The notes below the pieces were generated by a model. It did no database searches, had not been told where the DNA came from, and saw only the letters and a list, made by a program, of their open reading frames with translations. The position numbers and the translations under genes were made by a program. A stretch of 64,000 bases of DNA from Archangium lipolyticum (GTDB lineage Bacteria > Myxococcota > Myxococcia > Myxococcales > Myxococcaceae), in the NCBI RefSeq assembly GCF_024623785.1, contig NZ_JANKBZ010000005.1, positions 124,001-188,000 of the forward strand, given 5' to 3'. Every line of letters begins with the position of its first letter. Within the stretch, counting starts at the first letter, position 1. Shown here one piece after another: positions 9,104 through 20,346 of this stretch.

Positions 9104-10534
9104 TCACACCAGCCCGTGCTCCTCGAGCTTGTTGTAGAGGGTGCGCCGGCTGATGCCGAGCAGGCGCGCGGCGAGGGTGCGGTTGTCTCCCGCGCGCGCC
9201 AGGGCGTCCACCAGCGCCTGCCGCTCCATCTCCTTGCGCTGGGATTCCAGCGTACGCCCTTCGCTCCCAGCGGGGGCTCCCATCGGGGGGAACGCCGGAG
9301 CGGTGGGCGCGGGGCTCGCCGCCGTGGGGGCCAGGGCCACGGGGACGATGCCCGGCTGCCGGGTGACCTCGCGGTTCACGTCGTCGCCGGTGATGATGGG
9401 TCCGTCGGAGAGCACCACCAGCCGCTCGATGAAGTTCTGGAGCTGGCGCACGTTGCCGGGCCACGGCTGGGCCTGGAGGGCGGCGAGCCCCTCCGGCGTC
9501 AGGGTGAAGGGCGGCTTGCCGTTGGCCTTGGCGTGCACGTCGAGGAAGTGCAGCACGAGCGGCTGGATGTCCTCGGGCCGCGCGCGCAGCGGGGGCAACC
9601 ACACCGGCACCACGTTGAGCCGGTAGAAGAGGTCCTCGCGGAACTCGCCCTTGCGCACCATCTCCTCGAGGTTGCGGTGCGTGGCCGCCACGAAGCGCAC
9701 GTCCACCTTCAGCGTCTGCGTGCCGCCGAGCCGCTCGAACTCGCGCTCCTGCAGCAGCCGCAGCAGCTTCACCTGCACCTGGAGGGTGATGTCGCCAATC
9801 TCGTCGAGGAAGAGGGTGCCCCCGTGGGCCAGCTCCACCCGGCCCGGCTTGCGGGTGGCCGCGCCGGTGAAGGCGCCCTTCTCGTAGCCGAACAGCTCGC
9901 TCTCCAGCAGCGTGTCCGGCAGCGCGGCGCAGTGCAGCTTCACGAAGGGGCCACTCCGCCGGGGGCTGGCGTCGTGCACCGCCTTGGCGGCCAGCTCCTT
10001 TCCCGTGCCGGACTCGCCGCGCAGCAGCACCGTGGCCGTGCCCGTGGCCGCCCGCGACAGCAGGGCCTGCACCTCGGACATGGCGGAGCTGCGGCCCACG
10101 AAGGTGCTGGCCTCCTTCGCGATCGGACGCACCCCCTCCTGCTGCTGCGCACGCAGGAGCGCCTTGCGGATGCTGAAGAGGATCTCCTCCCGGTCGAAGG
10201 GCTTGAGGGCGAAGTCCGCGGCACCGGCCTTCATGGCCTCCACCGCCAGCGGCACGGTGCCGTGCGCGGTGAGGAGGATGACGGGCACGTCCGGCCAGGA
10301 GCGCCCCACCTCGGTGAGCAGCTCCATGCCACCCATGCCGGGCATGCGCACGTCGCTCACCACCACGTCGATGGGCTTGCGGCCCAGCAGGGCCAGTGCC
10401 TCCTGTCCATTGGAGGCCGCGTGCACGGTGAGTCCCGCCTGGCCCAGCAGCGCGCCGAGCACCTTGGCCACGGCGGGGTCGTCATCCACCAGCAACACGC
10501 TTCCCTTCAGCAGCTCGGCCACGGTGCTCCTCAT
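9104..10534 (-). CDS. Sigma-54-dependent response regulator, NtrC family
   Basis: Two-component regulator of 476 residues that activates sigma-54 promoters. The receiver domain (about 12-125) has the acidic triad at DDD17-19 and the phospho-acceptor Asp61 in SDVRMPG. The AAA+ domain (about 145-370) has Walker A GESGTGKE, the sigma-54 contact loop GAFTGA and Walker B LFLDEIGD. After a Pro/Ala-rich linker, the C-terminus carries a Fis-type helix-turn-helix (DNRTLAARLLGISRRTLYNKL). All key residues are intact. No kinase gene is adjacent, so it is an orphan; the kinase at 18.8-20.3 kb is a possible but unproven partner. Confidence 0.94.
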   Translation of the reverse strand: MRSTVAELLKGSVLLVDDDPAVAKVLGALLGQAGLTVHAASNGQEALALLGRKPIDVVVSDVRMPGMGGMELLTEVGRSWPDVPVILLTAHGTVPLAVEAMKAGAADFALKPFDREEILFSIRKALLRAQQQEGVRPIAKEASTFVGRSSAMSEVQALLSRAATGTATVLLRGESGTGKELAAKAVHDASPRRSGPFVKLHCAALPDTLLESELFGYEKGAFTGAATRKPGRVELAHGGTLFLDEIGDITLQVQVKLLRLLQEREFERLGGTQTLKVDVRFVAATHRNLEEMVRKGEFREDLFYRLNVVPVWLPPLRARPEDIQPLVLHFLDVHAKANGKPPFTLTPEGLAALQAQPWPGNVRQLQNFIERLVVLSDGPIITGDDVNREVTRQPGIVPVALAPTAASPAPTAPAFPPMGAPAGSEGRTLESQRKEMERQALVDALARAGDNRTLAARLLGISRRTLYNKLEEHGLV

Positions 10535-13101: not shown

Positions 13102-13686
13102 CTACGTCCGGTGATTCAAATGGATGGCGGCCACGACCGCCCCCGTGTCGCTCCGCAGGGCCAGCGCCTCGGGCGCGGCCATCCAGAGCGTCTCTTCCGT
13201 GGTCAGCGGTGTTCCCTCCACGGACGCCTGTCCTTCCAGGGCGTGGAGGAACACGGTGCTGGCGCTTGAAAGAGTCCGTGTCTCGCCCGGACCCAGGTGC
13301 ACCACCGCGAGCGTGGCCTCGGCCGAGGCCCGGTCGACCATGAGGTTGAAGTCCCTCACCGGACCTCCGAGCAACCGGCACTGGACCTCCGCCTCGCCCG
13401 GAAACGCGAGCGGTCTCCAGCGCCGGTCGAGCACCACCTCCGGCCCACTCCCGAAGGACAGCGCCACGCCCGCACCTTCCAGGATCATCAGGACGCGGTC
13501 GACACCCGGAAACACGGAGAAGGGTCCGGGTGCCGCGACCGAGGCGATCGACAGGCGCGCCAGGAAGCGGGCCGGGTCGGACGGATGCGGCAGCTTCAGC
13601 AACTCGCGGGTGACTCCGCCTCCGTTCTTCCAGGGCATGTCGCGGTAGTCGGCGGGTCCGAGTCGTCTCATCATCCGCCGCATCAT
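13102..13686 (-). CDS. HutD/Ves-like cupin protein
   Basis: 194 residues. The opening RLGPADYRDMPWKNGGGVTREL is the signature of the HutD/Ves family, with MPWKNGGG especially typical. Cupin-type strands follow (FSVFPGVDRVLMILEG, RPLAFPGEAEVQCRLLGGPVRDFNLMVDR). In proteobacteria HutD is often encoded with histidine-utilisation genes and is thought to act in regulation, but no hut gene is near here. Two ATG pairs (13686/13683 and 13674/13671) compete as start; the outer one has AGGA close by. It is convergent with the lipoprotein and divergent from the methyltransferase. Confidence 0.85.
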   Translation of the reverse strand: MMRRMMRRLGPADYRDMPWKNGGGVTRELLKLPHPSDPARFLARLSIASVAAPGPFSVFPGVDRVLMILEGAGVALSFGSGPEVVLDRRWRPLAFPGEAEVQCRLLGGPVRDFNLMVDRASAEATLAVVHLGPGETRTLSSASTVFLHALEGQASVEGTPLTTEETLWMAAPEALALRSDTGAVVAAIHLNHRT

Positions 13687-13776
13687 AAGTCCTGGCTCTC
13701 GGAGCGAGATGCCCGACTCTGGCGCCAGCGAGGAGTCTCGGAGCATCTCGGAGCAGGCACGGGCTATGTCACGGCC

Positions 13777-14379
13777 ATGTCGACCTGGTATCCCCCTGGC
13801 CTGAGTGGCCTGCTGCAAGAGCTCGAAACCTTCGGGGAGCACAACGACGCGACCGTCCAGGACCGGGCGTCGAAGATGCTCAACATCACGCCGGACACGG
13901 GCGTCTTCCTCTCCGTCCTCGTGCGCTCGATGGCCGCCCGGCGCGTGTTGGAGATCGGCACCTCGAATGGCTACTCCACGGTGTGGCTCGCGTCGGCGGC
14001 CGCGGCGGTGGGCGGTCGCGTCACGACTCTCGACGTGGAGGCCCGGAAGACGCAGCTCGCCGCGCACAACCTCGAGCGGGCCGGTCTGAGCGGCGTGGTG
14101 GAGCTGCGCACCGGGGATGCCGGTGCCCTGCTGGCTCAAGGGCCCGCCGAGCACTGGGATTTCATCTTCCTCGATGCCGACCGCAAGCCGTACGCGTCGT
14201 GGTGGCCCGACCTGTGGCGCGGGCTCCGGCCCAACGGCCTGCTCGTCGTGGACAACGCCCTCAGTCACGCGGCCGAGATGGAGCCCCTGGTCGAGCGGAT
14301 CCGCCAGGAGCCTCGCGCGACGCACGTGCTCGCCCCCGTGGGCAAGGGCGAGCTCATGGTCCTCAAGTCGAATCCCTGA
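13777..14379 (+). CDS. Class I O-methyltransferase (COMT-like)
   Basis: 200 residues. SAM-binding motif I is VLEIGTSNGYSTVWLA at about 52-67. TLDVEARK after the second strand carries the acidic ribose-binding residue. DFIFLDADRKPY holds the metal-binding Asp pair of caffeoyl-CoA/catechol O-methyltransferase-like enzymes, and LLVVDNAL is motif III. These place it among the small bacterial O-methyltransferases acting on catechols or similar small molecules. Length is a little under the family norm. The HutD-like gene is divergent, about 90 bp away. Confidence 0.88.
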   Translation: MSTWYPPGLSGLLQELETFGEHNDATVQDRASKMLNITPDTGVFLSVLVRSMAARRVLEIGTSNGYSTVWLASAAAAVGGRVTTLDVEARKTQLAAHNLERAGLSGVVELRTGDAGALLAQGPAEHWDFIFLDADRKPYASWWPDLWRGLRPNGLLVVDNALSHAAEMEPLVERIRQEPRATHVLAPVGKGELMVLKSNP

Positions 14380-14400: not shown

Positions 14401-15078
14401 TCACATCAGGTACGAGGACTCGGGGCTCAGGTCCTGCAACCGCCCGTTGCCCTTGCTCGACGCGCCCTTGCTGGCTCGCGTCTTGCGGGTGCGCTTGTTC
14501 GTGGCGGGGAGGGGCGACAGATCCTCGGCCTTGCGGCGTACGGCCCTCATCGCGTCCTTTCCCATGTCGAGCACCGAGGACACCGCGCCCGCCACCAGGT
14601 TGCCCGGCGGCGTGTCCGGCGCGCGCGGGTGCGGCCTCGTCGGCGAGGCCCTCTTCGCCAGCATCAGCGCCTCCGCCATGTCCTTGAGCTCGCTCGGGCT
14701 GAAGGCCTTGCGCACCTGCGGGAACAGATGTTTCTCCTCCTCGGAGACGTGCGTGCGGATGTTCTCCATCAGCACCTTCACCTTGGCGTCGAAGCGCTCG
14801 GCCTCCGGCGGCAGGTCCTCCAGCTCCTTCAGCAGCCACTTGGCCACGTGGTGTTCCTCGAGCGCCTCGAGCACCTCGTCCTCCAGCGCCTCGGCCTTGT
14901 TCCGCACCGCCGGGTAGAAGACCTGCTCCTCGATGACCGCGTGCACGGCGAGCTCGCGGACGATCTGGTCCACCAGCTTGCGCTTGAGCTTCCTCGCGTT
15001 GCGGCCGGCCTGCTCGAACTTGCGGAAGAGCGTCTCCACCGTCTTGTGGTCCGCCTTCAGGAGCGCGATGGCATCCAT
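14401..15078 (-). CDS. Hemerythrin-like HHE domain protein with basic tail
   Basis: 225 residues. The N-terminal four-helix domain (about 1-145) shows the diiron ligand pattern: H10 in LLKADHKTVE, HAVIEEQVFYPA, EEHHVAKWLL and THVSEEEKHLFP. Such domains bind oxygen, nitric oxide or iron and often protect iron-sulphur proteins. The C-terminal 70 residues are low-complexity and Lys/Arg/Ser-rich, perhaps binding nucleic acid. GGGAGA lies 5-6 bases before the ATG. It is the last gene of the long minus-strand run, 150 bp beyond the TPR gene. Confidence 0.88.
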   Translation of the reverse strand: MDAIALLKADHKTVETLFRKFEQAGRNARKLKRKLVDQIVRELAVHAVIEEQVFYPAVRNKAEALEDEVLEALEEHHVAKWLLKELEDLPPEAERFDAKVKVLMENIRTHVSEEEKHLFPQVRKAFSPSELKDMAEALMLAKRASPTRPHPRAPDTPPGNLVAGAVSSVLDMGKDAMRAVRRKAEDLSPLPATNKRTRKTRASKGASSKGNGRLQDLSPESSYLM

Positions 15079-15102
15079 TGAACGTCTCCCTTCCCCAAAG
15101 GG

Positions 15103-15120
15103 GGCCAGAATTCTCTGGCC
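15103..15120 (-). terminator. Hairpin in the leader of the hemerythrin gene
   Basis: GGCCAGA and TCTGGCC form a 7-bp perfect stem with a 4-base loop, between the end of the TPR gene and the ribosome binding site of the hemerythrin gene. No T-run follows on the minus strand, so it may be a weak terminator or a 5' leader structure. Confidence 0.35.
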
Positions 15121-15228
15121 TGTGTCGCTTGGAAGGGTGGCGACTGTGCTCGTCCCGTGCCGCGATGTGTCGAAGACAGGCTCTCGTCGGGCTGGAGGGC
15201 AGGCGAGCAGGACAGCCGTGCGGGGCGC

Positions 15229-17178
15229 TCACACCGCCCCGGCTTCGAGCGTCATCCCGTCCTCCTCTTCGGGGGCGAGGCGCCGGTACGTCCGCAGCGC
15301 TTCCGCCGCCGCCGCGGTGTGGCCCAGCAGGGTCAGGACGAGGGCTCGGTTGCGGTGGAGGTCCGCCACCTCGGGCGCCAGCGCGAGCGCCGCGTTCAGG
15401 TCGGCCAGGGCCGCATCGGGCCGGCCCTCCTCGTAGTGCAGGGTGGCCCGGTTGGCGAGCACCAGGGGTTGGGCCGGTTCGAGCTCCAGCGCCGCGGTGT
15501 AGTCCGCCAGGGCCTCGTCCGTTCGTCCGAGCTCCTCGGCCGTCTGTGCGCGGCCGATGCGTGCCAGCAGCCAATCCGGGTTCAGGTCGAGCGCCTTGCC
15601 GTACGCCTCGAAGGCCTCCTCCATGCGCCCCAGCAGGCGCAGGCTCTGCCCCAGGTTGATGCGCACCTCGGGGTAGGGCGGGCTCAGCTCCTCCGCGAGC
15701 TGGAAGTCCGCGAGCGCCTCCTCCAGCCGGCCCATCCGCATCAGCAATCTGCCGCGCTCGTTGTGGTACTCGGAGTAGTGGGGGTCCATCTCGATGGCGG
15801 CCGTGTACTGCGCGACCGCGCGCTCGGGCTCGCCGAGGGCGGCGTAGACCTGCGCCACGTTGTACTGGAGCACCGAGCGGTGCAGCCGGTGCTGGTCGGG
15901 CGCCAGGTGCGCTTCGAGCCGGGCGGCGCCTTGCAGGCACAGCTCGATGGCCTCCCAGGGCCGCCCTTGCCGGTGGCGGATGAGCGCCAGCCCGTTGCGG
16001 TTGAACACGTGGTGGAAGTGGTACTGCTCGGCGGGCAGGTGCGCCGCCTCCAGCTCGGTCAACGACTGCTCCAGGTAGGCCTCGGCCCTGCCCAGGTCCG
16101 TCTTCGGCAGGAAGCGCCCGTACAGCATGGCCAGGACGTAGTGGATGCGGAACAGCTTCGCGGGGTCGCGGAGGTGGGCCTCCATCTTCGACGCCAGCTC
16201 GAGCGCCTGGGACGGCTTCCCGGAGGCCAGATAGCAGTTCATGAGATTGCCCACGGCCATCCAGAAGGTCTCGGGGTCCTCCCGCTCGAGCACGTCGAGC
16301 TCGTCGAGCAGCTTCTGGCCGTAACGCAGGGCATCCGTGTACAGGCCGTAGTGGTTGGCCAGCCCGAAGGCGATCGCGCGGCACCGGCGCAGGCTGTCCT
16401 TCTGTCCCGCCTGTTCCCAGAGGCGGATCAGCGCCGGCAGGTGGAGCTCCTGCTCGATGAGATCGTCCCCCATCCGTTGTGCCAGCTCCTCGGCACGGCG
16501 GCGGGCCTCTTCTGGCTGCAACCGGGGTGGCTGCTCGTCCGGAAGCGGGAGGCGCACGATGTGAGGGGGCGTGCCTCCGGCCGCGAGCACATCCGCCAGC
16601 GCCTCGCTGGCTCCGGGCTCCACGGTGAGCAGCAGGGTGAGTTGGAGCTGTTGGCCTCGGCGGCGGATGAGCTCGAGGAAGAAGCGCTGCACCAGCGTGC
16701 TGGCCCGGTCGAAGGCCTCACAGGCGATGACCCAGGGGGCGGCACCCGAGCGCTCGTTCCAGTCCGCCAACATCTCCACGAGCCCGTGGATGACGTGGAA
16801 GGCGCGATCCATGGGGTAGTTGCGCACCCGCTCGTCTCCCATGGAGGAGTCCGTCAGGGAGGCATGCCGCACCTCCATCTCGCGCCGCAGGGCCGGGAGC
16901 ACGGTGAGCAACTCGTAGTCGTGCCGGGTGACGAGCTCGGGAGCGTCTCGCCGCAGCCTGGGGAGCAGCTCGCCGAGCAGCTGCCGCAGTCCCGCCCAGG
17001 GGCCGTCCTCGTCGAAGTCGCAGGCGAGGTGCCAGGTCCGGGCTCCCCGCCGCCGTGCCTGCTCCAGCCAGGTGTCCACGTGCTCGCGGCGGCCCTGGCC
17101 GGACTTCGCCTCGAGAACGAGGAGGGTAGGAGGGTGGGAAGCCTCGAAGGGGAGGGGGAGGACGGCCGGGTTCATCAT
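15229..17178 (-). CDS. TPR protein with a degenerate STAND/AAA-like N-terminal domain
   Basis: 649 residues. The N-terminal ~230 resemble a STAND-type ATPase of the AAA_16 kind: LLVLEAKSGQGRREHVDTWL sits where Walker A belongs, and PWVIACEAFDRAS where Walker B (hhhhDD) belongs. The P-loop Lys and the Walker B acidic pair are missing, so ATP hydrolysis is doubtful. The C-terminal ~400 residues are tetratricopeptide repeats (about 10), the clearest from residue 450 on (PERAVAQYTAAIEMDP, MEEAFEAYGKALDLNP, TDEALADYTAALELEP). Its start overlaps the stop of the PqqD/M50 gene (ATGATGA), so translation is probably coupled. Likely a scaffold for the peptide-maturation locus. Confidence 0.78.
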   Translation of the reverse strand: MMNPAVLPLPFEASHPPTLLVLEAKSGQGRREHVDTWLEQARRRGARTWHLACDFDEDGPWAGLRQLLGELLPRLRRDAPELVTRHDYELLTVLPALRREMEVRHASLTDSSMGDERVRNYPMDRAFHVIHGLVEMLADWNERSGAAPWVIACEAFDRASTLVQRFFLELIRRRGQQLQLTLLLTVEPGASEALADVLAAGGTPPHIVRLPLPDEQPPRLQPEEARRRAEELAQRMGDDLIEQELHLPALIRLWEQAGQKDSLRRCRAIAFGLANHYGLYTDALRYGQKLLDELDVLEREDPETFWMAVGNLMNCYLASGKPSQALELASKMEAHLRDPAKLFRIHYVLAMLYGRFLPKTDLGRAEAYLEQSLTELEAAHLPAEQYHFHHVFNRNGLALIRHRQGRPWEAIELCLQGAARLEAHLAPDQHRLHRSVLQYNVAQVYAALGEPERAVAQYTAAIEMDPHYSEYHNERGRLLMRMGRLEEALADFQLAEELSPPYPEVRINLGQSLRLLGRMEEAFEAYGKALDLNPDWLLARIGRAQTAEELGRTDEALADYTAALELEPAQPLVLANRATLHYEEGRPDAALADLNAALALAPEVADLHRNRALVLTLLGHTAAAAEALRTYRRLAPEEEDGMTLEAGAV

Positions 17179-18458
17179 GACTCCAGGTTGGGGGGGAGGG
17201 AGCCTCGTGCGGCCCGGTGGCGGAGGAAGCCTTGGAGGAGGCTCTTCAGCCAGAGACCCAGGCCGATCACGAGGCCGAGGATGGTGAGGCCACTGACGAG
17301 CAGTGCATCCGTCACCGAGTAGCGGGTGCTGTCGGCGGACGTCAGCGCCTGATGCAGGCCGGAGACGAAGCCGATGAGGAAGGGGAGCTGGAGGGTGAGC
17401 AGCACGGTGAGTGCCGCCAGCCGTCCCAGCAGCCAGACCATCGCGTACAGCCGGACGAAGCGCGCCTCGCGGGCGGGAAGGTCCGCCAACGGCGAAGGTT
17501 GCTCCCGGCGTCCGAGGAGCCGCCCCAGGCGATGGCGCAGCAGCGCCTCCGAATCCTGCATCAGGCTCTTGCAGCCGAGCAGGTTGGCGAGCGCGTAATA
17601 GAAGTCCGTGCGGACGAAGAGGTAGCACTGCCAGAGCAGGCGGAAGAGGTACATGAAGAACGCGCCCTGGCAGAGGTAGTGCATCCACGGAGAGAGCAGC
17701 ACCCAGCCCCGCGCCTCGGCGAACAGCACCAGCACCAGGCCGGCGGCGGACGTCAGGTCGACGAGGGGCCCCGCCAGCAGGGGCAGGTAGCGGGCCCGGC
17801 GCTCCACCAGCCAGAGGCCCGACAGGTCCGCCTCCGCGACGACCATCCACAGCCGGTGTCCGATTCCCAGCCGCGAGCCCACTCCCACGGCACGCGCCGC
17901 GACCAGGTGGGCCATCTCGTGGATGAAGGTGGTGAGCAGGCCGAGCCCCATCAGCACGAGCAGCGTCAGGGAGAAGTGCTGGGAGGGGGCCAGTTCCCGG
18001 GTCGTGCCCACGAGCGATGGGGTGGAGATCAGCGCGAGCACTCCCAGGGTGATGAGGAGCCCATGGAGCCAGAGCGCCACCCTGCCGAACAGCAGCCGCG
18101 CCAGGCGCTCGGGAAAACGCGCGAAGTGGTGGCGGACCGGGACGGCCGTGCTCCGCTCGGAAGCAACGGGGCCTGGCGCGGCGGCCTGTCCCTCGGCGGG
18201 GTGGACGAAGCCTCGCGCCTCGAGCGCCACGAGCAGCTCCTCCGTGGAGGGCTTCTCGCCGTGCTTCTCCTCGTACAGCACCTCCGCCTCCCGCACCCTC
18301 TTCCCCGAGGCGAGCAGATCCAACAGCTCCAGGGCCTCGGGAGGGAGCGCGATGAAGGCGCCCACCTCGGGGCGGCCGATGATGACCTCGTCACCCTCCG
18401 TGATTCGCTGGAAGCGCTCGACGTGGACCCGGCTCTCGGAGGAATAGCGGCTCATCAT
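17175..18458 (-). CDS. Membrane M50-type zinc metallopeptidase with N-terminal PqqD-like domain
   Basis: 427 residues. Residues about 20-95 match PqqD-like peptide-binding domains (IGRPEVGAFIALPPEALELL, then STEELLVALEARGFV), which grip leader peptides of ribosomally made natural products. After a short linker come several membrane helices with the zinc motif HEMAH (His180, Glu181, His184) in TTFIHEMAHLVAA. A downstream Asp is present in the segment LLAGPLVDLTSA, where M50 enzymes carry their third ligand. Comparable PqqD/M50 or YydH-type peptidases occur in RiPP clusters. The gene follows a 43-residue peptide gene and is coupled to the TPR gene. No good ribosome binding site precedes ATG 18458. 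Confidence 0.82.
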   Translation of the reverse strand: MMSRYSSESRVHVERFQRITEGDEVIIGRPEVGAFIALPPEALELLDLLASGKRVREAEVLYEEKHGEKPSTEELLVALEARGFVHPAEGQAAAPGPVASERSTAVPVRHHFARFPERLARLLFGRVALWLHGLLITLGVLALISTPSLVGTTRELAPSQHFSLTLLVLMGLGLLTTFIHEMAHLVAARAVGVGSRLGIGHRLWMVVAEADLSGLWLVERRARYLPLLAGPLVDLTSAAGLVLVLFAEARGWVLLSPWMHYLCQGAFFMYLFRLLWQCYLFVRTDFYYALANLLGCKSLMQDSEALLRHRLGRLLGRREQPSPLADLPAREARFVRLYAMVWLLGRLAALTVLLTLQLPFLIGFVSGLHQALTSADSTRYSVTDALLVSGLTILGLVIGLGLWLKSLLQGFLRHRAARGSLPPNLES

Positions 18459-18486
18459 GATGGGAGGGAGTTTGCTGAAGAAAGGA

Positions 18487-18519
18487 CCGGAACCTGTGGG
18501 CGGGAGACTCAGGTTCCGG
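18487..18519 (-). terminator. Perfect hairpin between the peptide gene and the peptidase gene
   Basis: CCGGAACCTG (18487-18496) and CAGGTTCCGG (18510-18519) form a 10-bp perfect stem with a 13-base loop. On the minus strand it is followed by TCCTTTCTTC, a pyrimidine-rich tract but not a clean T-run. It lies 30 bases after the peptide stop. This fits a leaky terminator or mRNA-stabilising hairpin that lets the precursor be made in excess over the peptidase and TPR proteins. Confidence 0.65.
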
Positions 18520-18548
18520 CCCCGAGCCTTCGCTCCTCGACCGAAGCG

Positions 18549-18680
18549 CTAGAACGGCAGGACCCTGCCGATGCACGCGAAGATCGGATAGAGGAGGATG
18601 GCGGTCGTCTTCACCGTCTCCACGTCGCGGATGGCGAACTTCTTCATCTGCTGTGGCTTCTCGTTCTTCTCCAGCTCCAT
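18549..18680 (-). CDS. 43-residue peptide, candidate RiPP precursor
   Basis: Short gene with a good ribosome binding site (AAGGAAG, 7-8 bases before the ATG). The product starts with a charged segment (MELEKNEKPQQMKKF), continues with RDVETVKTTA, which looks like a leader recognition stretch, and ends in a hydrophobic core with Tyr31, Pro32, Cys36 and Gly38 and a Leu-Pro-Phe terminus. Charged leader, hydrophobic core and a PqqD-like/M50 gene 90 bp downstream on the same strand together suggest a ribosomally made, processed peptide. The single Cys excludes a lanthionine pair unless another modification is used. Met12 is an alternative start. Confidence 0.68.
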   Translation of the reverse strand: MELEKNEKPQQMKKFAIRDVETVKTTAILLYPIFACIGRVLPF

Positions 18681-18801
18681 GGGGTTGCTTCCTTGGCCGG
18701 GCGCGCGGCCGTGCGGGATTGCCGGCAGTGCGCCTTCCGCTGGAAGGAGTTCCACGGTGCTTTTTGTGAGCAGAGGAGACTGGACCCGCCGCGAGTCTTC
18801 T

Positions 18802-20346
18802 TCAGCAACTCGGCCAGGGAGCGCCCTGTCCCGGCACGGCAGCACTGGCGGGTGCCTCGGAGGCCGGCAGGCGCAGCGTCACGGTGGTGCCTCGCCCCTC
18901 GTGGCTCGTCAGCGAGACCTGTCCCCCGTGGGCCTCCACCACCCGGCGTACGAAGGCGAGCCCCAGCCCGCTCCCCATGGCCTTGGTGGTGTAGAAGTCG
19001 TCGAAGGCCCGCTCGCGCGTGCGCACGTTCATGCCCTCGCCCGTGTCCTCCACGCTCAGCTCCAGGCCCGTGCCCACCACCTGCGTCCGCACCGTGAGGG
19101 TGCCTCCGCACGGCATGGCCTCGAAGGCGTTGCGCACCAGGTTCTCCAGTGCGTTGGCCAGCAGGTCCCAATCCCCCGAGCAGCGCGGAGGGTCCACCGC
19201 CAGCTCGCGCCGCAGTTGCACCTCCGGGCGTCCGGTGAAGGCCTGCAGCGACAGCACGCTCGCCACCAGCTCGTTCAGGTCCAGCGGCGCCCGCAGCGGC
19301 TCCACCCTCCCCAGGCGCTGGTAGGTGCTCACCACCCGGTCCAGCCGCTCCACCTGCTCCAGCAGCAGGTCCAGGAACTCGCCCTTGTCGTCCCAGGGAC
19401 GGCCCTGGGCGTGCTCCACCTTGAGGTACTGCGCGGCGCCCTTGAGCGCGGCGATGGGGTTCTTCAGGTCGTGCGCCATCTGCGCGGAGAAGCGGCCCAG
19501 GGTGGCCATCTGCTCCAGCCGCTCGCGCTGCGCCACGTAGGCGATGACGCCCCGGCGCATGGTGGCCAGCAGGACCAGGGTGATGGCGGCCGTCCCCACC
19601 ACCAGCGCGCCGTACTGCGCGGCGAACAGCTGGAAGACGGCCAGGTAGGACAGCACTCCCACCAGCGCCAGCAGCAGCGCGTACATGGCGTGGACGTTGG
19701 ACAGGTCCCTCCCGAAGAGGCGCAGGCGCAGCGCCACCACGGCGATCGCCGGCAGGCCCAGCAGTGTGCCCAGGTTGCCCAGGCGCGGCACGTCCTGGCC
19801 CATCACCGCCACCAGGTCCGTGCCCAGCAGCGTCACCAGCAGCGCCAGTCCGGTGAGGAGCAGCCCCGTCCGGGTGCGCTCGGTGGAGCGCACCTCGCGG
19901 CGCAGGTGCTGGGTGAGCAGGCCGAAGCCCCCGAGCAGCAGCGGCCCGCTGAACGCCAGCACCAGCAGCGCGAAGGCACGCGAGCCCACCAGCCCGGCCA
20001 TGCGCTCCGAGCCCAGCCCCGCCAGCGACGCGGCCGTCAGCGCCCCGAAGACGCCGTAGCTGGAGAACATCACCACCGCCAGCCGGCGCCGCTCTCCCAC
20101 GAAGGCGAGGATGAAGTGCAGCGCGGACGGCGCGCTCATCAGCGCCGCGGCCAGGGCCATGATGCGCCAGCCAGGCTCCCCCGAGTGCGCCAGCGCGAAG
20201 TCGGCGAAGTTCCACGTGGACAGCGTGATGCACAACACCGAGAGCGGCAGTGCCATCGGGCTGCGTCCCACGCGCACCAGCGCCAGGCCCGCCAGCGCCA
20301 GCAGCCCCGCGCAGGCCCCGAGGCTGATCCACGCCTGGCTCGTCAT
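18802..20346 (-). CDS. Membrane sensor histidine kinase (NtrB-type)
   Basis: 514 residues. About eight hydrophobic segments fill the first ~230 residues, resembling seven-helix (7TMR/MASE-like) sensor regions. The kinase core follows: H-box MAHDLKNPIAAL with His292, N-box NALENLVRNAFEAM, G1 DTGEGM, F-box RAFDDFYTTKAMGSGLGLAFV and the G2 glycines. The Lys-Asn-Pro after the His, and the closing GTTVTLRLP, fit kinases that partner NtrC-type regulators. It starts 21 bp after the MshEN-GAF-HEAT gene, so the two form an operon. No response regulator is adjacent. Confidence 0.93.
   Translation of the reverse strand: MTSQAWISLGACAGLLALAGLALVRVGRSPMALPLSVLCITLSTWNFADFALAHSGEPGWRIMALAAALMSAPSALHFILAFVGERRRLAVVMFSSYGVFGALTAASLAGLGSERMAGLVGSRAFALLVLAFSGPLLLGGFGLLTQHLRREVRSTERTRTGLLLTGLALLVTLLGTDLVAVMGQDVPRLGNLGTLLGLPAIAVVALRLRLFGRDLSNVHAMYALLLALVGVLSYLAVFQLFAAQYGALVVGTAAITLVLLATMRRGVIAYVAQRERLEQMATLGRFSAQMAHDLKNPIAALKGAAQYLKVEHAQGRPWDDKGEFLDLLLEQVERLDRVVSTYQRLGRVEPLRAPLDLNELVASVLSLQAFTGRPEVQLRRELAVDPPRCSGDWDLLANALENLVRNAFEAMPCGGTLTVRTQVVGTGLELSVEDTGEGMNVRTRERAFDDFYTTKAMGSGLGLAFVRRVVEAHGGQVSLTSHEGRGTTVTLRLPASEAPASAAVPGQGAPWPSC

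Follow-up and report, generated by a model that had tools for sequence, protein, structure and literature searches.

A 64,000-nucleotide stretch of the Archangium lipolyticum genome (Myxococcota; contig NZ_JANKBZ010000005.1, positions 124,001 to 188,000, from an assembly of 12.6 Mb in 75 contigs), hereafter the window, holds a compact cassette on its minus strand, transcribed in the order 43-residue peptide, membrane metalloprotease, tetratricopeptide repeat (TPR) protein. An earlier note on this DNA took these genes for a minimal system of the ribosomally synthesized and post-translationally modified peptide (RiPP) type, with the peptidase as its defining partner and the TPR protein as an accessory. 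Compared with its relatives, the cassette has the look of a small peptide system of Gram-negative bacteria that has yet to be described and may serve in signalling. Its core would be the peptide together with the TPR protein; no paper describing such a pair was found in the open-licence PMC literature. The locus comprises the following features:

18549..18680, minus strand: precursor peptide, 43 residues, MELEKNEKPQQMKKFAIRDVETVKTTAILLYPIFACIGRVLPF, with a conserved leader, MKKFAIRDVETVKTT, and a predicted core, AILLYPIFACIGRVLPF (putative cleavage site)
18469..18548, minus strand: intergenic hairpin GGCCGGAACCTG...CAGGTTCCGGTCC with a weak T-rich tail, between the peptide and protease genes; possible partial terminator or attenuator
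17175..18458, minus strand: membrane metalloprotease of the site-2-protease-like (M50) type, 427 residues, fused to a RiPP recognition element (RRE); RRE-like part at about 11-88, HEMAH at 180-184
15229..17178, minus strand: TPR protein, 648-649 residues; degenerate AAA_16 domain (STAND-like pseudo-NTPase) at about 1-230, then a TPR superhelix

The peptide, protease and TPR genes are confirmed as real genes and not chance reading frames. An internal ATG in the peptide gene would yield a product of 32 residues. The TPR gene starts with the ATG at 17178 or that at 17175, and because the first of these overlaps the stop codon of the protease gene (ATGA), translational coupling of the two, as proposed in the earlier note, is plausible.

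Linkage between these genes is visible in other genomes. A search of 98 genomes with the single peptide returned ten at E ≤ 10, the window's own among them, and the two best other matches, in genomes G047 (3.5e-4) and G048 (0.0045), both lie directly upstream of an M50 homologue. On the side of the protease, five of 96 family genomes were recovered, the window's own included, and with an alignment of six M50 proteins close homologues (E < 1e-150) turned up in five of the 195 genomes searched from the window's phylum and, in an order centred on the Lysobacteraceae, in three of 398. A scan of genome contigs with the single protease gave 97 stretches and one relative, a Lysobacteraceae metagenome assembly; using exact short patterns, it reaches close kin only. 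Weak relatives alone (E 1e-9 to 1e-11) were present in six further genomes of the order and two of the phylum, and G130 has an additional weak one; the cassette count excludes all of them (six of the nine matching genomes of the order; G027, G581 and the second copy of G130). All genome searches scored the best first-look candidates only (for G003, the best 38 of 110 with a profile of 14 peptides and 24 of 24 with one of eight), so that counts and absences are lower bounds throughout. Each of the eight close M50 homologues, the window's included, has the peptide upstream and a TPR gene downstream, which places the full unit in these eight genomes. The lack of a homologous peptide beside the peptidase in relatives would have counted against the earlier note; in all eight of these loci the peptide is there. 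When open reading frames of at least 80 residues were compared all against all between the eight loci (7.5-64 kb), nothing apart from the M50 and TPR genes was common to them; the comparison covered the frames of the window with a match and the frames matched in at least three other loci, antisense and shadow frames being set aside. A kinase and a response regulator of the window had one generic match each, in loci L018 and L020.

Extending the search from the peptide and from the TPR protein changes the picture of what is constant in the system. The eight-peptide profile matched 17 of 92 family genomes at E ≤ 1, eight of them at E ≤ 4.9e-5: the five known genomes and three without such a protease stand below 5e-5, and nine weaker matches run up to E 1. 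Weak leader matches were not counted; the one in G033 (0.156) eventually turned out to be genuine, next to a TPR gene, and the one in G017 (0.0027) has an internal stop, G017 not being one of the 12 TPR-matching genomes. A TPR profile matched those 12 among 193 genomes of the phylum, the same three genomes as before among the 398 of the Lysobacteraceae order and, in 298 draws from the class, only the already known G136. Leader and TPR searches combined yielded 15 loci with a TPR gene. Eight have the protease. Two (G100, G021) have the TPR homologue and an ABC exporter after the peptide (ABC_membrane and ABC_tran, with no peptidase domain reported). Four have neither (G129, where the peptide is followed by the TPR gene alone, G113, G108 and G033), and one (G003) lacks both peptide and protease. 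The peptide thus lies upstream of 14 of the 15 TPR genes, directly adjacent in six loci and with the protease gene in between in eight. The first profile missed the peptides of G113 and G108, which came to light when the DNA upstream of their TPR genes was read. When all 14 peptides were combined into a profile and run on 193 genomes of the phylum, the 11 genomes with both TPR gene and peptide were matched at E ≤ 1.1e-7, then G088 (0.0033, antisense inside a gene) and, at 0.06, G586 twice; since these 11 genomes were in the profile, the result speaks only against extra unlinked copies.

It follows from these counts (14 of 15 TPR genes with the peptide, eight with the protease, two with an exporter, four with neither) that the core of the system, as far as gene content can tell, is peptide plus TPR protein, with a protease or exporter as an interchangeable accessory; G003, which keeps the TPR gene alone, and the TPR tree described below point the same way. 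The place given to the peptidase in the earlier note is not supported, since six of 14 leader-bearing peptides stand beside a TPR protein without it; conversely, the TPR protein cast as accessory turns out to be the constant partner.

The leader itself, MKKFxIRxVETVKTT, is conserved as protein, and the remainder of the peptide is variable. In eight loci, the 18 codons that start at KK give 504 codon pairs, of which 225 are identical, 151 synonymous and 128 non-synonymous; codon positions 1, 2 and 3 differ 115, 33 and 222 times. The leader-bearing short peptide of the earlier note is supported, as is the conservation of its leader next to the proteases of relatives. Across the 14 loci the peptides have 22-45 residues. 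A core Cys is present in 12 of 14 and three Cys (CxxC...C) in seven, a Tyr or Trp is conserved 4-5 positions past K(T/S)(T/S/A), and no precursor ends in Thr. In the two shortest (MKKLTIRDTETVKTSTLLWVMP and MKKLTIRSTETEKTSPVAWAFVF, ending in TLLWVMP and PVAWAFVF), only short hydrophobic tails remain after the leader. Such tails resemble those of RRNPP pheromones. Cleavage is predicted after KTT, by analogy, when VETVKTT is aligned with the daptide motif ELExMEAP at positions -8 to -1. A lead towards microcin C-like peptides, from the C-terminal Asn of several cores, was dropped, as other cores have different C-termini and no ThiF turned up here.

The constant partner is a protein of 636-674 residues as read in the 15 loci. 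Its N-terminal part (residues 1-230) is recognised as Pfam AAA_16 in four of 11 proteins (best E 1.3e-5), that of the window having no match. The Walker A signature GK[ST] is found at the aligned position in none of the 15, which have Arg in place of Lys, and the acidic residue of Walker B is not conserved among them: the domain is, judging from these residues, a STAND-type pseudo-NTPase. The C-terminal rest carries TPR families and folds as a TPR superhelix (model pLDDT, the predicted local distance difference test, 77.6), the 50 best Foldseek rows all being TPR or similar helical-repeat proteins; conservation peaks at residues 461-520 (approximately), 561-580 and 601-620. No catalytic domain was recognised by family and profile searches. 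Other comparisons gave little: a search of PDB sequences with the pseudo-NTPase profile had a single match at E 0.61, taken as chance, the N-terminus had no match on plasmids, the whole protein had one weak match in phages over TPR residues 443-584, and the only PADLOC match of the three cassette proteins, to PrimPol (E 0.057), covers part of the TPRs.

As for the protease, the earlier note had described a membrane metallopeptidase with HEMAH at His180, Glu181 and His184, and this reading stands: the enzyme is of the site-2 type and the motif is invariant in all eight M50 homologues. It scores 19.9 bits with Pfam Peptidase_M50, below the threshold of 27.2, and 42.6 bits over residues 16-320 with the NCBIfam family of daptide proteases (NF041824, daptide_HExxH), for a cut-off of 300; NF041824 is matched by four of the eight family members (E ≤ 0.01) and NF058609 by just two, with a best E of 0.007. 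The same note proposed a PqqD-like domain, which holds as a fold; Pfam PqqD gave no match at E ≤ 1. The AlphaFold model, from an alignment of two sequences, has a mean pLDDT of 53 with fair confidence only at about 11-88, and the structural reading is confined to this RRE part, the membrane part being left uninterpreted. Foldseek matched the model to TbiB1 (5v1v) with a probability of 1.00 and a TM-score to target of 0.68, then to McbBCD subunits, McbB included (0.97-0.99), TigE (0.96) and MibB (0.84), more weakly to MccB (0.66) and a sactipeptide enzyme (0.44). The title of the TbiB1 entry itself names a leader complex, and McbB, TigE, MibB and the like are RRE-bearing proteins. None of these matches reaches an E-value below 0.001 and unrelated membrane proteins (probability about 0.1) are interspersed; the alignments, of 80-92 columns, presumably cover the N-terminus. 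An N-terminal RRE fold is supported by the Foldseek probabilities, with E-values short of significance. Against viral contigs the protease alignment gave 98 pattern matches and no relative.

Swapping of modules around the core can be followed on the tree of the 15 TPR proteins (midpoint root). On it the protease label has to change four times, each change being imposed by well supported branches, and the label 'neither' twice; the two exporter systems have as their sister, at 100/100, the protease system of G106. The three Lysobacteraceae-type sequences and G047, from the window's own family, fall on one side of a branch supported at 100/99, a split compatible with transfer between phyla. Within the genus, G003 offers a natural deletion. 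Its flanks are 92-95% identical to the window, and the missing part extends from about 14 nucleotides before the peptide start to about 48 nucleotides before the protease end, the leftover end arguing for a deletion rather than a state that preceded insertion. The TPR frame there is intact, with a dN/dS ratio of about 0.31 (0.23 in the kinase next to it), and no precursor was found in the genome by two peptide profiles. Five genomes of the genus (G001-G005) were read and yielded no clean empty site: in G004 a segment that matches window positions 9153-10528 comes after the kinase, and in G001, G002 and G005 the 1500 bases beyond the kinase have no match longer than 80 bases to the window.

Around the cassette, 18 open reading frames of the window, some of them overlapping and probably spurious, were scanned at Pfam E ≤ 1e-5. 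None matches a known RiPP-modifying family, in agreement with the earlier note, nor is there an aminotransferase or alcohol dehydrogenase among them; PrmA was matched. Genes for HutD and an O-methyltransferase (PF01596) lie at window positions 13102-14379, about 0.9 kb past the 3' end of the TPR gene, and the comparison of open reading frames found no match for them in the other seven cassette loci. The 80 nucleotides past the peptide stop fold with z ≤ -2.5 in eight of the 14 loci, among them six of the eight with a protease (-2.81 in the window), and with z from -1.44 to 0.15 in the remaining six. Since the hairpin sequences vary between loci, it is the arrangement, not the sequence, that is conserved where a hairpin occurs. 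The window hairpin is absent from the output of a simple terminator scan (loop 3-8); over positions 15100-18900 the terminator scan returned one unrelated terminator-like site for 0.8 expected, and a sigma-70 consensus scan returned no promoter. Rfam had no match in 15000-19200. In all three Lysobacteraceae-type loci (L041, L042 and L001, about 2488-2515), an inverted repeat CTGTTT...AAACAG is seen by eye 5' of the precursor, a possible operator.

How might such a cassette work? We lean, at a little less than an even chance, towards a leader-bearing peptide with a dedicated pseudo-STAND/TPR protein, here endowed with its own processing enzyme, working in the manner of RRNPP signalling without being a member of that family. 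The RRE domain of the protease would bind the leader around IRDVETVKTT, and its intramembrane HExxH site would cut near the KTT-A junction, releasing a hydrophobic, mostly Cys/aromatic peptide of some 7-30 residues (17 here). The hairpin past the peptide gene may keep the precursor in excess over the protease. The peptide would then be exported, a step of processing or export that the ABC exporter could take in two of the 14 loci. In the cytoplasm the TPR protein would be the receptor for this peptide, or for the precursor, and its degenerate NTPase domain would serve as a switch or a docking module that does not hydrolyse ATP. Several observations weigh against this signalling scheme. No signal peptide is evident by eye on the precursor, and the searches recognised no DNA-binding or output domain in the TPR protein, which is longer than RRNPP receptors (636-674 against 250-500 residues). 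Its TPR region is strongly conserved and the cores are variable, a pattern more in keeping with a protein that binds the leader or some shared partner than with a receptor specific for the core. In the four systems with neither protease nor exporter nearby, processing would need unlinked enzymes. The dN/dS value in G003, finally, also spans time before the deletion. A bolder version, which we regard as possible and rather doubtful, makes of the cassette a pheromone module spread over Myxococcota and Lysobacteraceae-type bacteria, with a pseudo-STAND/TPR receptor and a swappable cartridge (protease, exporter or none), in which receptor-only strains like G003 would be signal-blind cheaters or eavesdroppers.

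The deletion in G003 can be read quite differently. In a toxin-immunity or bacteriocin system, the protease would free a membrane-active Cys peptide directed against competitors, and the TPR protein would give immunity or keep the precursor inactive inside the cell; a strain having lost peptide and protease and kept an intact TPR gene would then be akin to those with orphan immunity genes, which often persist in this way. To be sure, a soluble protein of 650 residues would be an unusual immunity protein, immunity to membrane-active peptides being usually membrane-bound. The hydrophobic and variable cores would suit a toxin, and according to PMC10885120 the M50 protease EpeP matures an antimicrobial epipeptide. 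However, a tail like TLLWVMP would make for a very short bacteriocin, and the sole PADLOC match, to PrimPol, concerns part of the TPRs; we hold this explanation to be unlikely. Alternatively, the leader and the RRE-protease follow the very logic of RiPPs, and one may imagine that the TPR/pseudo-NTPase protein is a maturase or scaffold, or that distant enzymes modify the conserved Tyr/Trp and the Cys before leader removal. The core Cys, the CxxC...C pattern and the conserved aromatic residue favour this, and a TPR-containing putative arginase occurs in one RiPP cluster (PMC12257519). Yet a RiPP without a recognised modifying enzyme seems quite unlikely, given that the TPR protein has no recognised catalytic domain and a degenerate P-loop in 15 of 15 cases, that no modifying enzyme is common to the eight protease loci and that G003 keeps the TPR gene when no precursor is detected.

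A last possibility, highly improbable, was dropped: that of a degenerate remnant of a daptide system, the precursor and the RRE-protease having survived the loss of the daptide enzymes. The NF041824 match of the protease and the resemblance of VETVKTT to ELExMEAP led to this idea. It is disfavoured by the complete lack of terminal Thr in the 14 peptides and by the recurrence of these three genes together, with a leader conserved as protein, both in the phylum of the window and in genomes of the Lysobacteraceae type; the section of PMC10036551 giving the daptide account has no TPR partner either. If the signalling scheme is true, known circuits have a compact Gram-negative counterpart, the natural versions of which come with a protease, an exporter or neither of them; together with a natural mutant that has lost the peptide, they would open the evolution of a circuit to direct tests. 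If a RiPP or toxin system is at work instead, the cassette is an RRE-protease pathway that has no recognised modifying enzyme and a constant TPR partner. In all cases, the leader motif is a handle for finding precursors of 22-45 residues.

Among known systems, the protease resembles the leader protease of daptides: PMC10036551 describes an intramembrane site-2 protease with an RRE fused to its N-terminus, and ELExMEAP as the leader motif. The order of domains, RRE then membrane HExxH protease, is that of MpaP/DapP, and the leaders share hydrophobic residues at i and i+3 with a Glu between (DVETVKTT here, EVETVKTT in relatives). By contrast, the NF041824 score is far below its cut-off, no DapB/C/D/M-type genes are recognised nearby and a TPR partner is present; none of the daptide oxidative decarboxylase, aminotransferase and methyltransferase genes is common to the eight loci. 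With no C-terminal Thr in 14 peptides and the daptide enzymes not found nearby, the cassette is not a daptide system. YydH/LiaK (EpeP) likewise places an M50-type protease beside a small precursor; here no radical SAM enzyme was found among the scanned neighbours, and NF058609 concerns only two of the eight proteases.

Streptomyces plasmids also carry a relative of the protease, with about 30% identity over some 70%, and a tiny peptide, MEIKVRKVEDVKATGLQV, that resembles the leader; a ThiF-family adenylyltransferase takes the place of the TPR protein. There (L023 7835-10345, L052-L056), ThiF-family and M50-type genes are followed by the identical 18-residue MEIKVRKVEDVKATGLQV in the six loci read of 21 records, an identity that is weak evidence because these loci are close relatives; a motif scan found no such peptide in L022 (Nonomuraea). 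On an Actinacidiphila plasmid (L021 7450-10179), a 38-residue reading frame ending in RIGFRRLERVETTNSPCANAS lies upstream of ThiF and M50-like genes. Elsewhere, a weak M50 relative (L043 4733-6408) is accompanied by an upstream Cys/Gly-rich peptide ending in VEFSCCGGGGGGDGDPSTGCPEFTYCDPQ and a protein that its sequence suggests is acyltransferase-like, a possible RiPP-type cluster, and L049 (1-10369, from G027) carries an M50-like protease with radical SAM/SPASM-like, acyltransferase-like and arginase-like proteins, named on the same basis.

The TPR protein recalls the STAND/AAA_16-TPR architecture, MalT-like or of the putative peptide modification system cyclase TIGR04510, in having an AAA_16-like domain ahead of TPRs. 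TIGR04510, which combines such domains, goes with putative modified peptides. In the cassette, however, no cyclase or helix-turn-helix domain is recognised, Walker A is lost, and TIGR04510 matches the TPR part only, with 22.3 bits for 400.

There remain the peptide pheromone circuits. Two-gene circuits of a pheromone and a TPR receptor, the latter of 250-500 residues, are described for Gram-positive Firmicutes in PMC10075063. In RRNPP systems, the propeptide is encoded beside its TPR receptor, Eep, a membrane zinc metalloprotease, processes it, and propeptides are secreted by Sec or, for SHP/PrgQ, exported by the ABC exporter PptAB. By the published criteria the cassette is not RRNPP, on account of the length of its TPR protein; the peptide gene adjoins the TPR gene in six of 14 loci and is separated from it by the protease gene in eight. 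It differs by its presumably Gram-negative hosts, its pseudo-AAA_16 protein of 636-674 residues, its RRE-type leader and the encoding of protease or exporter beside the pair. Eep belongs to M50. In Rgg-SHP systems with Eep and PptAB, as in the cassette, a short propeptide near a TPR protein goes with a step that either a membrane metalloprotease or an ABC exporter can take.

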